Origin: an uncultured Ignavibacteria bacterium
Lineage (GTDB): Bacteria; Bacteroidota; Ignavibacteria; SZUA-365
Assembly: GCA_913061095.1 (NCBI GenBank)
Contig: CAJXVM010000005.1
Location: 124,001 to 188,000, forward strand
Direction of reading: 5' to 3'
Length of the DNA: 64,000 bases
Part shown: positions 46,843 to 56,729 of the stretch, in pieces
How the letters are laid out: each line of letters starts with the position of its first letter
Numbering within the stretch: position 1 is the stretch's first letter
Translations under genes and position numbers: made by a program
The notes under the pieces: model-generated
Seen by the model: only the letters and a program-made list of their open reading frames with translations
Database searches by the model: none
Told to the model about the DNA's origin: nothing

Positions 46843-47835
46843 ATGCTCAATCACATCTGGCTCGCACTCATTGTCATCGGCATCCTCACGGCTGCCGGGA
46901 GAGATGTGTACGACGTGGTGCAGAACTCCTACGGGAACGGCATCCCGTGGGATGTGCGTCTCGAGGATGATGCCGCCGCGCGAGCTCCGGTCTCACAGAA
47001 GGGAGGCGTGCGTACTGCGGCATTGTCGCTGAGGAAAACCGTGCAGATCAGCGCCGCGGAATTGCGCCGGCATTTCCCGACCGATACGATCGACGGTGGC
47101 GTCAGCATTCCCGCCGTGTACATGCAGCATGAAGACGGAAAGCGTTCGCTCGTGATGGATGTGACCGGGGAGGATGTGCCGGAACGTTTCGTGGTCATGG
47201 CCGAGGCGCTCGGCGGTGGGGAAAAGCTCAGTGCGCAGCTGGAGCGCAAGGGTGACGGGTGGCGGATGCGCATCGACGACGTGTCGCTGGTGTATCTGCG
47301 GAAAGTCACCAACGCCGCGTTTGAAATCGCCGGGGTTGCGGTACAGATTGCGATCGGACTGATCGGCATCATGGCGCTGTGGCTCGGCGTGATGCGCGTG
47401 GCCGAGCAGGCCGGACTGATCAATCATCTCGCGCGGCTTGTGCGTCCGATCACCGTGCGCCTCTTTCCCGACGTCCCTGCCGATCATCCCGCGGTGGGAT
47501 CGATGATCATGAACATTTCCGCGAACATGCTCGGGCTCGGCAACGCCGCCACGCCGTTCGGACTCAAGGCCATGGAGGAGCTCGACAAGCTCAACCCCAA
47601 ACACGGCGTGGCCACCGACGCGATGGTCACCTTCCTCGCGCTCAACACATCCTGCGTGACGCTCATCCCCGCGACCGCTATCGCGGTGCGCGCCGCGGCC
47701 GGATCCCCGGATCCTGCCTTCATCATCGGCACGTCATTCCTTGCGTCACTGACCGCCACGATATTCGCCGTCATCATTTCAAAGCTGCTTTCCCGCGTCA
47801 GGATCTGGCGTTGGGAGCGCTCGGAGGCTGAATGA
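46843..47835 (+). CDS. spmA: SpmA-like nucleoside recognition (Gate) membrane protein
   Basis: A 330-residue SpmA-family protein. The family was named from Bacillus spore core dehydration, but occurs widely in non-sporulating bacteria. The Gate-domain half (about 155-325) has MRVAEQAGLINHLARLVRP, MNISANMLGLGNAATPFG and LNTSCVTLIPATAIAVR. Compared with the ~196-residue Bacillus protein it carries about 130 extra residues between the first TM helix (about 5-18) and the second, predicted extracytoplasmic. Its stop overlaps the spmB start (ATGA). Confidence 0.88.
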   Translation: MLNHIWLALIVIGILTAAGRDVYDVVQNSYGNGIPWDVRLEDDAAARAPVSQKGGVRTAALSLRKTVQISAAELRRHFPTDTIDGGVSIPAVYMQHEDGKRSLVMDVTGEDVPERFVVMAEALGGGEKLSAQLERKGDGWRMRIDDVSLVYLRKVTNAAFEIAGVAVQIAIGLIGIMALWLGVMRVAEQAGLINHLARLVRPITVRLFPDVPADHPAVGSMIMNISANMLGLGNAATPFGLKAMEELDKLNPKHGVATDAMVTFLALNTSCVTLIPATAIAVRAAAGSPDPAFIIGTSFLASLTATIFAVIISKLLSRVRIWRWERSEAE

Positions 47836-48374
47836 TGGAAGTATTCCGTGTCATCGTCTCCGTGCTTTCAGCCGTCGCCATCCCGGCGCTGATGCTGTTT
47901 TTCCTTGCCTACGGCGCGTTCAAGAAGGTGAAGGTGTACGAAACGGCCGTGGAGGGTGCGAAAGAGGGTTTTGAAATCGCCGTGCGCATCATTCCCTATC
48001 TCGTGCTGATGCTGGTTTCGATCGCCGTGTTCCGGGCCAGCGGCGCGATGGATGTGTTCATCACGCTGGTGAGTCCGATCACCGACCTGTTCGGCATCCC
48101 CGCCGAGGCCCTGCCGATGGCGATGATGCGTCCCCTCTCGGGCAGCGGTTCGCTCGGCATCATGACCGAGACCATGCAGGCCTACGGCACGGATTCCTTC
48201 ATCGGCATCCTCGTCTCGACGCTGTACGGCAGCACCGAGACCACCTTCTACGTACTCGCCGTGTACTTCGGCGCCGTCGGCATCCGCAACACGCGTCACG
48301 CTCTTCCCACGGGCCTCCTCGCTGATTTTATCGCCTTCCTCGCCGCCGTCTTCTTCGTCGGGCTGGTGTTGTAA
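47832..48374 (+). CDS. spmB: SpmB-like nucleoside recognition membrane protein
   Basis: A 180-residue SpmB partner of SpmA, of normal family length. It has VEGAKEGFEIAVRIIPYLVLMLV, the Gate motif FRASGAMDVFI, MRPLSGSGSLGIM and YGSTETTFYVLAVYFGAVG, which are characteristic. Translation is coupled to spmA by a 4-bp overlap. The stop lies just before the first palindromic element (48380), which may act as the transcript's 3' structure. Confidence 0.9.
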   Translation: MMEVFRVIVSVLSAVAIPALMLFFLAYGAFKKVKVYETAVEGAKEGFEIAVRIIPYLVLMLVSIAVFRASGAMDVFITLVSPITDLFGIPAEALPMAMMRPLSGSGSLGIMTETMQAYGTDSFIGILVSTLYGSTETTFYVLAVYFGAVGIRNTRHALPTGLLADFIAFLAAVFFVGLVL

Positions 48375-48379
48375 TGGAC

Positions 48380-48475
48380 GACGGATTGAAATCCGGCCGG
48401 AATCTGACACGTGTTCTCGATCTGGAAATGCATTTGGAACACGGGAGGCTTGTCGATCAGGGATTTCAATCCGTC
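48380..48475 (+). repeat. REP-like palindromic element E1
   Basis: 96 bp with arms GACGGATTGAAATCC (48380-48394) and GGATTTCAATCCGTC (48461-48475), a perfect 15-bp inverted repeat. Inside, CGTGTTC and GAACACG form a second 7-bp stem. The subterminal sequence CCGGAATCTGACA is shared with E3 and E4. The right arm overlaps the stop codon of RAYT1. Confidence 0.85.
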
Positions 48476-49001
48476 ATTCGCAGAAATACATCCATTGCCA
48501 TTCCTCTGGATCCGATACCAAACCCCGGTGCAGTGGATTCTCGTAGATATACTGCAATACTCTTGAACGATCCTCCTCACTTCGAATTCGTCGATCATAA
48601 TATTCCTGCTGCCAGATCGATCCCTCTGCATGTCTGACACGATTTACCCTTCGTGCTGTTATCCGTTTGATAGTATGCATGATGTGGGCAAGTGAAACGG
48701 AAGTATCCATCTGCACCGCAGGATGAATCAGCATGTGGAGATGATCGGGCATGATTACACAGGCATCAAGATGGTACATCTTCCTGTCGAAGTGTTTGAT
48801 GGTCTGCATTACTTTCACGGCAATGCGATCGTCTGAAAGTGCATACGGGTAGATGATCGGCAAACCGGAATCAGGATGGCGCTTTACAGAAGTTGTAAGG
48901 AAATAGCCATTCCCATTGGACTGGAAATGTGGCAATTTTCTACGATACTGATATCGGAATCTCAGCTGTCTCATGAAACCATAATCGTGACAGGTGAACA
49001 T
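48474..49001 (-). CDS. REP-associated tyrosine transposase 1 (RAYT)
   Basis: A 175-residue Y1-type transposase-like protein (IS200/IS605 relatives that are linked to REP sequences). It has RRKLPHFQSNGNGYFLTTSV near the N-terminus, the HuH metal site in MPDHLHMLIHP, the catalytic-Tyr region IWQQEYYDRRI and the RAYT ending YIYENPLHRGLV. The start at 49001 is used; an internal ATG at 48974 is possible. The stop TGA is formed at the border of element E1. E2 lies 24 bases upstream of the start. Expected to nick and move REP-like hairpins; whether it does here is unknown. Confidence 0.88.
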   Translation of the reverse strand: MFTCHDYGFMRQLRFRYQYRRKLPHFQSNGNGYFLTTSVKRHPDSGLPIIYPYALSDDRIAVKVMQTIKHFDRKMYHLDACVIMPDHLHMLIHPAVQMDTSVSLAHIMHTIKRITARRVNRVRHAEGSIWQQEYYDRRIRSEEDRSRVLQYIYENPLHRGLVSDPEEWQWMYFCE

Positions 49002-49024
49002 GATCGTCTGTCGTGCTCAACAAT

Positions 49025-49125
49025 GACGGATTGAATTCCCTTTCCCCGGACATCTCCAGCGGGTCGCACAGGTGTTCAGGCATTCATATCGTGCAGAACG
49101 GCACCGGCCGGGAATTCAATCCGTC
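49025..49125 (-). repeat. REP-like palindromic element E2 (covarying arms)
   Basis: 101 bp, inverted relative to E1. Arms GACGGATTGAATTCC (49025-49039) and GGAATTCAATCCGTC (49111-49125). Both arms carry the same change compared with the other copies, so pairing is kept. The right arm overlaps the RAYT2 stop codon. Confidence 0.85.
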
Positions 49126-49757
49126 CTCCCAAGCTCCCCCCGCTCCCAGCTCCAGAGCCATTCGTCGGGGGTGCCGACGAGTCCGGCACGGACGGGATCG
49201 CGGCGGATGTAGCGGCGCACGCTGTCGAGCTCGCGGCGGCTGCGCAGGATGCGGTGGTAGTCGCCGTCCTGCCAGAAGGGCCCGCGCAGTTCGAGCAGCC
49301 GACTCGCGAAATGCGCCACCGGATGCTTCAACGCATCGGCGACATGGGTCGGCGTCGGTCCGCTGCGCAGTTCCAGGCTCTGGGAATACAGCACATGCAC
49401 ATGCGTCGGCAGGATGACGTAGCCTTCGAGGCGGCAGAGCACGCCCTCCATGGCGTGAAGGGTGATCTGCGTGAATTCCGCCACGGCGGGGTGGCCGAGC
49501 CAGGCGGGCCCCGGCGACGCGCCCAGTACGGAATCCCAGAAACGGAAGAGATGCGAAGCGAAGACGTCCATCGTGGATTGATCCCTCGGAGCGGCGGCGG
49601 AAAACTCCTGTGCGCAGGATGAGCGGTAGCGCATCAGCCGCTCCCGCGCGGAGAAAGGGATGGAATGGGCAAGACGGCAGGTCAGGAATGAATATACGTG
49701 GTGAAGGGACGACGACGACACGTCGCGTCCGAAGTACCGCTGTTCGAGCGTGGACAT
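49116..49757 (-). CDS. REP-associated tyrosine transposase 2 (RAYT)
   Basis: A 213-residue second Y1-type transposase, clearly different from the neighbour. It has a longer N-terminal region (about 1-60), the HuH site in VILPTHVHVLYS, the Tyr region PFWQDGDYHRILRS and the ending VRRYIRRDPVRAGLVG, followed by DEWLWS. The start at 49757 has GGGAG as ribosome binding site. Its last codons and stop (Gly-Arg-Thr-Asp-stop) are provided by the arm of element E2. The two RAYT genes run head to tail with an element after each. Confidence 0.85.
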   Translation of the reverse strand: MSTLEQRYFGRDVSSSSLHHVYSFLTCRLAHSIPFSARERLMRYRSSCAQEFSAAAPRDQSTMDVFASHLFRFWDSVLGASPGPAWLGHPAVAEFTQITLHAMEGVLCRLEGYVILPTHVHVLYSQSLELRSGPTPTHVADALKHPVAHFASRLLELRGPFWQDGDYHRILRSRRELDSVRRYIRRDPVRAGLVGTPDEWLWSWERGELGRTD

Positions 49758-49934: not shown

Positions 49935-50390
49935 CTATCGCCCGACTTTCCTTTTCAGGTCGTCGAGCTTTTTGCGAACGATGGCCAGTGCGGCGTCGAC
50001 ATCCTCCTTCCGGCTGACATGCATCGTAATCCACTTCATTTTCTCGGAGAGCGAATAATGCTCGAAAGCCTGGCGGATATGCGGTGTCAGTTCACGAAGG
50101 GAAAGATAATCCTGCTCTTCCGCGATGGGGATGGATAGCGTGATCGAGAAATATCCCTTGTAGAAGTGCAGCACACAGAGTACGCGGGAGCGATAGGAGG
50201 CGCGGTATCCCCACCCCTCCTCGCTCTCGTACCAGTGCATGGCCCAGCCGATGCGCGGCTCCAGCAGCTCGAGTCGGTGCTCAAAGCGCTTGAGTTCGAT
50301 GGCCGGCAGCATCCCCAGCAGCTGATCGATCTCCGGCCGCGTGGGCGGATGCTTGTGCTCGTTGAACGGCAGTTTTGGCTTTTTGTCCAT
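49935..50390 (-). CDS. DUF3788-like protein
   Basis: A 151-residue soluble protein. It has the pattern of DUF3788: WYESEEGWGYRASYRSRVL, a short strand LHFYKGYFSITLSIP and a C-terminal helix VDAALAIVRKKLDDLKRK. In other genomes the family is of unknown function, perhaps ligand binding. It starts 9 bases after the purC stop, so it is probably co-transcribed with purC. The family assignment is tentative. Confidence 0.65.
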   Translation of the reverse strand: MDKKPKLPFNEHKHPPTRPEIDQLLGMLPAIELKRFEHRLELLEPRIGWAMHWYESEEGWGYRASYRSRVLCVLHFYKGYFSITLSIPIAEEQDYLSLRELTPHIRQAFEHYSLSEKMKWITMHVSRKEDVDAALAIVRKKLDDLKRKVGR

Positions 50391-51372: not shown

Positions 51373-51446
51373 CGCGCCCGCAGGGACTCGAACCCCGAAC
51401 CTCCTGATCCGTAGTCAGGTGCTCTATCCAATTAAGCTACAGGCGC
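51373..51446 (-). tRNA. tRNA-Arg(ACG)
   Basis: 74 bases on the minus strand. Acceptor stem GCGCCTG / CGGGCGC (with one G-U), D-arm AGCTTAATTGGATAGAGC, anticodon stem CCTGA/TCAGG around the loop CTACGGA (anticodon ACG), and T-arm GGTTCGAGTCC. The 3' CCA is not encoded. The wobble A would be modified to inosine by TadA to read CGU, CGC and CGA. Confidence 0.93.
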
Positions 51447-55520: not shown

Positions 55521-55528
55521 ACAAGGAG

Positions 55529-55625
55529 GACGGATTGAAATCCGTCCGCATTCTGTCATGATCAATGAATCCTGTTCGTGTTTGTGGCGTACCCAAATTG
55601 GCAAAATGGGGGATTTCAATCCGTC
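55529..55625 (+). repeat. REP-like palindromic element E3
   Basis: 97 bp with arms GACGGATTGAAATCC (55529-55543) and GGATTTCAATCCGTC (55611-55625). The left arm is itself a hairpin (GACGGAT-TGAA-ATCCGTC). Subterminal CCGCATTCTGTCA matches the consensus of E1 and E4. Preceded by GGAG, as in known REP sequences. Confidence 0.85.
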
Positions 55626-55681
55626 ATTGTGTTACAGAATCCGCGGTTTCAACCGGTGCATCGATGGATGAATTTTCTCAC

Positions 55682-55745: not shown

Positions 55746-56519
55746 ATGCGGATTACAGCGTTGCTGCTGATGCTGCTCGCGCTGCCGGTGGCGGCACAGC
55801 AGGGGGATTCTGCGGAGGATGAAAAGTGGGGGAATCCCACCGAAGATGCGGAAGCAGGAAGGACAGCAATCCTGTCGATGGCGGCAGCGCAACATGACCC
55901 GCAGCACCTGCGGAATCCATCCGTGCAGCTGCGCGAAGATCAGATCCTGTATGTCCGTTCCTGGAAGCCCTTCGATCCATCCACAATGCTGGTCCAGGCC
56001 GGCTGCGCACTTGTGACCGAGACGGTTGCGTGGTTCGCGGGATTCTACCTGGTCAGTTCAGGGGGCGGCACGGGAGATCTCGGCAGTTCTCTCGGCGCCA
56101 TGATTTTCGGCGGACATCTGCTTGCTTCACTGGCAGGGGCGCCCGCCGGCGTACAGCTCGGCGGTGCACTCATGGGAGGAAACGGCACATTCTTCGGATC
56201 ATTGCTGGGCGGTGTGGCCGGAACCGTACTGAGTACTGTCACACTGTATGCACTCCGCGGTTCAAGCGACCCATGGCTCCAAGCGGGAGCAATGTATGCG
56301 TCCTATACCATCCCCGCCATCGTGGGATATCACCTCACCGCATCCCCCATGAACTTCTACTTCTACGACGACGCGCCGGAAGCTTCCGCGCGAGCGGAAC
56401 GCCTGTCCCACACCCCGGCATACACGCTGCATCCTGATGTTCCGGGTCCGGGTTATGCGGTCGATCCCGTCCACCCGCTGCCGGATGTCCAAGTGACATT
56501 GCTGAACATTTCCTTTTGA
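55746..56519 (+). CDS. Secreted protein of unknown function enclosed by palindromic elements
   Basis: A 257-residue protein with a signal peptide (about 1-18, ending VAAQ). A short acidic part is followed by RNPSVQLREDQILYVRSWKPFDP. The centre (about 80-200) has several hydrophobic Gly/Ala/Ser-rich helices (LGSSLGAMIFGGHLLASLAG, LLGGVAGTVLSTVTLYAL), so either a small membrane protein or a helical exported protein. The C-terminus is polar and Pro-rich. No family recognised. It sits between inverted elements E3 and E4. Confidence 0.72.
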   Translation: MRITALLLMLLALPVAAQQGDSAEDEKWGNPTEDAEAGRTAILSMAAAQHDPQHLRNPSVQLREDQILYVRSWKPFDPSTMLVQAGCALVTETVAWFAGFYLVSSGGGTGDLGSSLGAMIFGGHLLASLAGAPAGVQLGGALMGGNGTFFGSLLGGVAGTVLSTVTLYALRGSSDPWLQAGAMYASYTIPAIVGYHLTASPMNFYFYDDAPEASARAERLSHTPAYTLHPDVPGPGYAVDPVHPLPDVQVTLLNISF

Positions 56520-56582: not shown

Positions 56583-56612
56583 ACCGGGCTGTGGCGGTGG
56601 CCGCGGATGAAT

Positions 56613-56709
56613 GACGGATTGAAATCCCATCCCGGCTGTGAGCCGTTGAGCACGAATGTCAGCGTAACCTGATGGCCGGTGTCAGAATCCGGCAGGATTT
56701 CAATCCGTC
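56613..56709 (-). repeat. REP-like palindromic element E4
   Basis: 97 bp, reverse orientation. Arms GACGGATTGAAATCC (56613-56627) and GGATTTCAATCCGTC (56695-56709). Read on the minus strand, the subterminal CCGGATTCTGACA matches E1 closely. Confidence 0.85.
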
Positions 56710-56729
56710 CTGCAGACGAGAGATCAACG

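Follow-up and report, generated by a model that had tools for sequence, protein, structure and literature searches.

A likely low-copy REPIN-RAYT system with one-footed hairpin elements beside two distantly related RAYT genes in an Ignavibacteria genome

Introduction

The TnpAREP transposase recognises single-stranded REPs and cleaves at an adjacent CT using the foot, and single changes in GTAG abolish the activity of the Escherichia coli enzyme and reduce that of the S. maltophilia enzyme (PMC8266576). In P. fluorescens, REP doublets are most often 71 or 110 bp apart (PMC3116915). Why RAYTs and their repeats persist without ordinary transposon behaviour is an open question (PMC3116915, PMC8049555).

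The locus described here was first noticed in a sequence-only reading, which took REP-RAYT systems to be known mainly from gammaproteobacteria and suggested that an FCB version with long-armed elements of ~97 bp might be a distinct group. Neither premise agrees with the literature: from Bacteroidetes, published surveys already record RAYT subclass 2.4, with canonical or double-foot GT[AG]G REPs, and subclass 2.6, whose structures are atypical (PMC6006769), and a span of ~97 bp between paired arms is normal for a REPIN (PMC3116915). A text search of the openly licensed literature found no relevant paper combining RAYT or REPIN with Ignavibacteria. We consider it likely that the locus belongs to a low-copy REPIN-RAYT system, whose ~100-bp elements are non-autonomous units.

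Results

Two RAYT genes that end in palindromic elements

Two genes for RAYT-type Y1 HUH proteins lie head to tail on the minus strand of the window (the whole 64-kb stretch of DNA that was analysed), as the sequence-only reading had it. RAYT1 (48474..49001) encodes a REP-associated tyrosine transposase of 175 aa, and RAYT2 (49116..49757) a divergent, vertically inherited RAYT of 213 aa, which was recognised by a sub-cut-off family match, its predicted fold and syntenic orthologs. Read along the minus strand, the order is RAYT2 (49757-49116), element E2 (arms 49125-49025), RAYT1 (49001-48474) and element E1 (arms 48475-48380). E1 (48376..48478, plus strand) has a GGAC foot at its low end and CATT at its high end, and E2 (49022..49129, minus strand) has a GGAG foot at its high end. 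The repeat finder returned perfect arms of 15 bp in 48380-48475 and of 16 bp in 49025-49125, so that each RAYT gene is indeed followed by a 96-101 bp element with inverted arms. An element also lies just upstream of RAYT1, as had been claimed, but it is the same E2 that follows RAYT2, and the locus therefore holds two elements, not three.

The elements form the 3′ ends of the two genes, and both stop codons are completed by element bases. E2 supplies the last codons and the stop of RAYT2 (GGGAGGACGGATTGA; ...GGG AGG ACG GAT TGA), while E1 completes the stop of RAYT1 (GAA TGA CGG, with TGA at 48476-48474). On its other side E1 starts 1 nt beyond the end of the convergent SpmB-like gene (Pfam Gate; 47832..48374, plus strand), a conserved neighbour that marks the insertion spot. 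The other side of RAYT2 is occupied by a second conserved neighbour, a DUF3788 gene (49935..50390, minus strand). Between PurC and LysS there is a minus-strand tRNA gene at 51373-51446 (Rfam RF00005).

RAYT1 scores 99.6 bits against the NCBIfam model REP_Tyr_transpos (NF047646, cut-off 80 bits), matches Pfam Y1_Tnp, and matches E. coli TnpAREP (PDB 4er8) by sequence with E=5e-5. RAYT2 reaches 48.7 bits with the same model, under the cut-off, and the Pfam search gave no match; the best PDB match of its predicted fold (mean pLDDT 74, 7 sequences) is 4er8 TnpAREP (Foldseek E=1.4e-5), followed by IS200/IS605 TnpA transposases. The catalytic motifs are HLH 87-89 and Tyr151 (YIYENP) in RAYT1, and HVH 119-121 and Tyr183 (YIRRDP) in RAYT2, of which only the former carries the Y---NP signature of class 2. 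The HUH-Tyr spacing is 64 residues in both proteins, which counts for RAYT identity since it falls inside the 58-67 published for most RAYT subclasses (PMC6006769). RAYT1 has W-Q-D-R-R at the positions with which E. coli TnpAREP reads its GTAG guide; W, Q and R are kept, and the E>D and H>R changes are those described for subclasses 2.5/2.7 (PMC6006769); RAYT2 keeps these positions in part only. RAYT1 is single-copy but patchy, and RAYT2 is present at one syntenic place in the family.

Other Y1 transposases are encoded in the same genome (G000) at C16:102271, C8:121652 and on C34, and could be an alternative source of the elements. The C34 gene (L127:1-900) is a further RAYT-like gene, with the palindromes GGACGAGCC-n-GGCTCGTCC and GCCCGAGCC-n-GGCTCGGGC upstream. 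Elsewhere, on contig C86 of G007 (L075:2488-5043), a RAYT-like domain lies in frame within an ORF of at least 852 aa, the remainder of which resembles a DUF1156/DNA-methyltransferase-type protein (named by eye).

A dispersed family of elements

Allowing up to 3 mismatches, the window contains 15 occurrences of the arm where 2.8 are expected, and 0 of 100 shuffles reach 15. Strong inverted repeats with a span of 60-160 bp are limited in the 64-kb window to E1, E2 and two further copies that the sequence-only reading had not listed: E3 (55525..55628, plus strand; arms 55529-55625), which lies 3′ of a PcrA/UvrD-type helicase gene, and E4 (56610..56713, minus strand; arms 56613-56709), between the ORF at 55746-56519 and a CoA-binding-type gene. 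A mobile cassette made of E3, the intervening gene and E4 was considered and rejected, since homologs of the gene adjoin the same CoA-binding gene in G004 without elements; homologs are also found near the CoA-binding gene in G006 and G009, again without these elements.

Genome-wide, exact two-armed matches number 4 per strand, at four places, against 0 for the reversed-pattern control, and allowing up to 2 mismatches in the arms gives eight pairs. A first covariance model, built from 8 copies of this genome only, found further copies here and in the congeners G004 (best E 6e-10), G001 and G002. The second model finds about 16 copies here, about 9 in G004, about 6 in G001 and 1 in G002; copies used in building it match it by construction, but most G004 copies and two G001 copies had already been found by the first model, for which no other genome was used. 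The elements are thus present, with 1-9 copies, in three of the four congeners; in G003, which has kept RAYT2, the covariance model detected none. The searches, which the sequence-only reading had suggested starting from the arm, reveal a dispersed family, neither absent from RAYT-bearing relatives nor at chance frequency, with copies far above the controls.

The family is restricted to the genus. The polar pattern GNAGGACGGATT-N70-95-AATCCGTCATT has 10 exact matches in this genome and none in a sample of 295 other genomes from across the phylum (control 0). In a search of 391 genomes of the class, the exact arm type GGATTGAAWTCC turned up in G000 and G002 only, which are the genus members with RAYT1. 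The exact-arm search had suggested that elements co-occur with RAYT1 only, an idea overturned by the diverged copies that the covariance model found in G001 and G004.

All copies are intergenic or overlap gene ends, mostly 3′ of a gene and often between convergent genes. Such a placement would also be expected of host regulatory hairpins, that is, terminators or mRNA-stability elements lying near RAYT genes incidentally. We regard this explanation as very unlikely, because the loops are 66 nt long, presence differs between congeners, and 2 of the 16 copies abut RAYT genes (P about 1e-5 in a uniform-placement model). Two more copies lie within 10 kb of RAYT genes (P about 0.002, same model). 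A terminator scan gave no site at the elements and Rfam no match there, so intrinsic terminators and known RNAs were discarded as candidates. Degenerate tracts such as ttggttattggtt or ctgtgggctatg often precede the elements (for instance in L172 and L175), and may be marks of preferred insertion sites.

Element structure and polarity

When the copies are oriented and aligned, nearly all read GNAG-GACGGATT ... AATCCGTC-ATT around a loop of about 66 nt. One end thus has a GNAG foot (GGAG/GTAG), which resembles the GTAG foot of REPs, and the opposite end has CATT. The foot is GGAG in 8 of the 16 copies, GTAG in 4, GCAG in 2, and GGAC and GAAG in 1 each, which gives a GNAG foot, at one end only, in 15 of the 16. 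In the two longer copies of G001 each end bears a GGAG-like foot, and no GNAG foot is seen in the copy of G002. A 55-bp copy at G000:C2:5224-5278 (L171:1525-1579) combines a GTAG foot with a stem that is almost unbroken, and resembles a double-foot REP derived by central deletion from a longer element.

The arms fall into two types, GACGGATTGAAWTCC and GACGGATTnnnTGCC, and their mutual pairing is kept in 93% of cells. Covariation supports this pairing: double changes are seen in 31 cells where shuffles give 9.8 ± 2.3, and 0 of 500 shuffles reach 31, although the shuffles ignore shared descent and the strength of the signal is therefore approximate. Sliding the partner strand destroys the signal, leaving at most 13 cells. 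The inner hairpin within each arm, by contrast, is paired in 71.7% of cells and shows no covariation; it is present in the GAAATCC copies and absent in the nnnTGCC copies, and the notion that each arm is a small REP hairpin of its own (GGATT-GA-AATCC) was rejected for the family. As single-stranded DNA, seven of the eight own-genome copies folded are 3.9-4.9 SD more stable than shuffles, the eighth (E8) being no more stable. Alignment, folding and covariation together show the architecture of a REPIN, in which a variable spacer separates two conserved, inverted ends and the single-stranded DNA folds into a hairpin. The ends are not REP palindromes themselves, and for this reason we call the elements REPIN-like, not strict REPINs. 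What sets them apart is that the GNAG foot stands at one end only, and that the arm-to-arm stem is conserved instead of hairpins within the arms.

Short elements with inverted ends and a diverged interior could in principle be MITEs that derive from an ordinary DDE insertion sequence whose terminal repeats match theirs. This origin appears extremely improbable: the feet are polar, with GNAG opposite CATT, flanking direct repeats are lacking at the four window copies, and the transposase-type genes found beside copies are those of Y1 enzymes. The lack of direct repeats at these four copies fits single-strand transposition.

Evolution of the locus

The genus and part of the family share the gene order SpmA-SpmB > < RAYT2 < DUF3788 < PurC (among the relatives, those with names are MAGs that carry the label Bacteroidetes or Ignavibacteria bacterium). 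The phylogeny of both proteins that the sequence-only reading had suggested is clear on one side only: RAYT2 orthologs form one clade with 100/100 support in the RAYT tree, but the RAYT1 part is weakly supported. In pairwise comparisons the dN/dS ratio of RAYT2 is about 0.1-0.4, and in most of these comparisons dS is close to saturation. RAYT2 is an old, divergent, vertically kept and probably domesticated gene.

The spot between RAYT2 and SpmB, in contrast, is variable. It holds RAYT1 plus elements in G000 and G002; in G006, at a contig end, it holds a RAYT1-like gene with other palindromes, which groups with RAYT1 in that weak part of the tree. Downstream of the G006 gene lie two copies of GGAGGATGAGCCTTCAGGCTCGTCC. 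In G004 a GTAG-GACGG palindrome directly follows the RAYT2 stop and contains the SpmB stop codon, in G001 a palindrome lies 21 nt after the RAYT2 stop, and neither locus has RAYT1. In G003 the spot is empty, the two stops being a few bases apart. G009 and G011 carry there a DUF559-like ORF (identified by eye; L077:3083-3925 and L079:2779-3760), bordered by inverted CCCCTCTCTTGACAGAGAGGGG palindromes in the same layout as RAYT1 and its elements; these gaps contain the DUF559-like gene and no RAYT1 remnants. The compact E1-RAYT1-E2-RAYT2 unit proposed earlier is accordingly not inherited as such: the tandem is an occupied insertion spot beside an ancestral RAYT2. RAYT1 comes and goes at this spot and, together with the elements on either side of it, has a patchy distribution there. 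The arm core of the G004 palindrome, GGATGACGGGGAC, has 2 exact matches in G004, both in that palindrome's own arms. With one mismatch, 13-31 matches lie scattered through each of the five genomes, where the control gives 2-5; this search says little.

RAYT2 is also retained in the sister genus (G009, G010, G011), at the same locus where the contig shows the surroundings. Here Phe replaces the catalytic Tyr (RFIREDP, EFILRAP, RFIRDAP) and HVH is kept, in sequences from L077 (G009), L063/L079 (G011) and L069/L078 (G010). GNAG-GACGG elements were not found in the sister genus, the two weak matches in G009 being to a different GTAG palindrome.

Discussion

Candidate enzymes and proposed mechanism

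Because of the analogy with TnpAREP (PMC8266576), we propose that a RAYT acts on the single-stranded hairpin. A single-stranded element would fold into a long hairpin, with a 15-bp stem, a diverged loop of ~66 nt, GNAG on the 5′ side and CATT on the 3′ side. A RAYT acting in trans would most likely recognise the foot plus the stem and nick the single-stranded DNA beside them with its HUH/Tyr site, and the element could then be copied or moved via a single-stranded intermediate, with no target-site duplication expected. Recognition, cleavage and mobility of the elements are probably due to RAYT1 or RAYT2.

As to which of the two is the cognate enzyme, distribution favours RAYT2, while residue conservation and the two-sided flanking favour RAYT1. 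It is quite plausible, if short of probable, that the family-wide, old RAYT2 maintains the elements and that RAYT1 arrived later between two element copies. RAYT2 is present in all five genus members, elements in four and RAYT1 in two; the palindromes after RAYT2 in G004 and G001 occur without RAYT1, and the dN values, read with the near-saturated dS, point the same way. RAYT2 is, however, far from the family model and has only partly kept its guide-reading positions, G003 has RAYT2 and no detected element, and G001 and G003 hold other Y1 proteins. Somewhat more tentatively, RAYT1 may be the cognate enzyme, in which case E2-RAYT1-E1 would be a classical REPtron inserted behind RAYT2, and the copies in G001 and G004 would be left from a lost RAYT1. 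As a standard RAYT, RAYT1 has its guide-reading residues intact, and elements flank it on both sides; GGATTGAAWTCC was found only in the two genus members that bear it, and the G006 gene at the same spot groups with it, albeit in a weak part of the tree; against this stand the related copies, some with good arms, in the RAYT1-less G001 and G004, and the single copy found in G002, which has RAYT1.

A further idea, which we find rather unlikely, is that RAYT2 represents a family-specific domesticated lineage serving a polar, one-footed hairpin, and that the sister genus swapped its Tyr for Phe. If true, this would be a natural case of a RAYT retained for a job other than moving repeats. The genus offers a small comparable set, comprising genomes with both RAYTs or RAYT2 only, with and without elements, and the RAYT2 of the sister genus, which lost the catalytic Tyr. 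The polar elements, for their part, allow a clean test of whether the substrate that is recognised consists of the foot and a long stem between the arms. Some observations count against the REPIN-RAYT reading itself, namely the foot, which is mostly GGAG and not GTAG, the unconserved within-arm hairpins, G003, which has RAYT2 but no detected element, and the other Y1 transposases of the genome.

Comparison with known systems

Most of the defining features of REPIN-RAYT systems are found here. As in the REPINs of P. fluorescens (Bertels and Rainey 2011, PMC3116915), inverted conserved ends of ~15-16 nt enclose a less conserved spacer, the spacing is similar, the single-stranded DNA forms a long hairpin, and copies are intergenic and lie beside a single-copy RAYT. 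They differ from those REPINs in number (about 16 copies here, hundreds there), in the one-ended foot, in the unconserved arm palindrome and in having two adjacent RAYTs.

Bacteroidetes RAYTs with REP-like structures are already known (PMC6006769). The REPtrons and the 2.4/2.6 TnpA-REP genes belong to the same phylum group and, as here, the RAYT is flanked by REP-like structures, which are double-foot or atypical and have copies elsewhere in the genome; the HUH-Tyr spacing is however 88 in subclass 2.4 and 82 in 2.6, compared with 64 here. The RAYT1 motifs (DHLH, WQ, YIYENP) are nearer to subclasses 2.5/2.7, a placement made by motifs and not by tree (PMC6006769).

TIRtrons, with their TIRYTs (Di Nocera 2013, PMC3733652), also have long inverted repeats that border RAYT-like genes, some in moderately abundant families. 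The motif GGGGWSAS, frequent in TIRtrons (PMC3733652), is absent from the aligned arms here, the elements carry a GTAG-like foot, and RAYT1 is bordered by whole two-armed elements, not by single arms; most TIRYTs, moreover, are of the longer subclass 2.1, with a median of 238 aa (PMC3733652). The outer end of the arm, CGTC, recalls the CGTC-tagged REPs reported in Bacteroidetes and Chlorobi, which are described as lacking a dedicated transposase and as having stems of 8-9 bp, loops of 4-5 nt and a CCA tail (PMC3733652), but in our elements CGTC lies inside the paired stem.

The departures from described REPIN-RAYT systems are the one-ended, mostly GGAG foot, the lack of a conserved within-arm palindrome, and the presence of two distantly related RAYTs at one locus. 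With these departures, what we see here seems to be a new version of the known REPIN-RAYT partnership, tagged at one end only, and not a system of a new kind.
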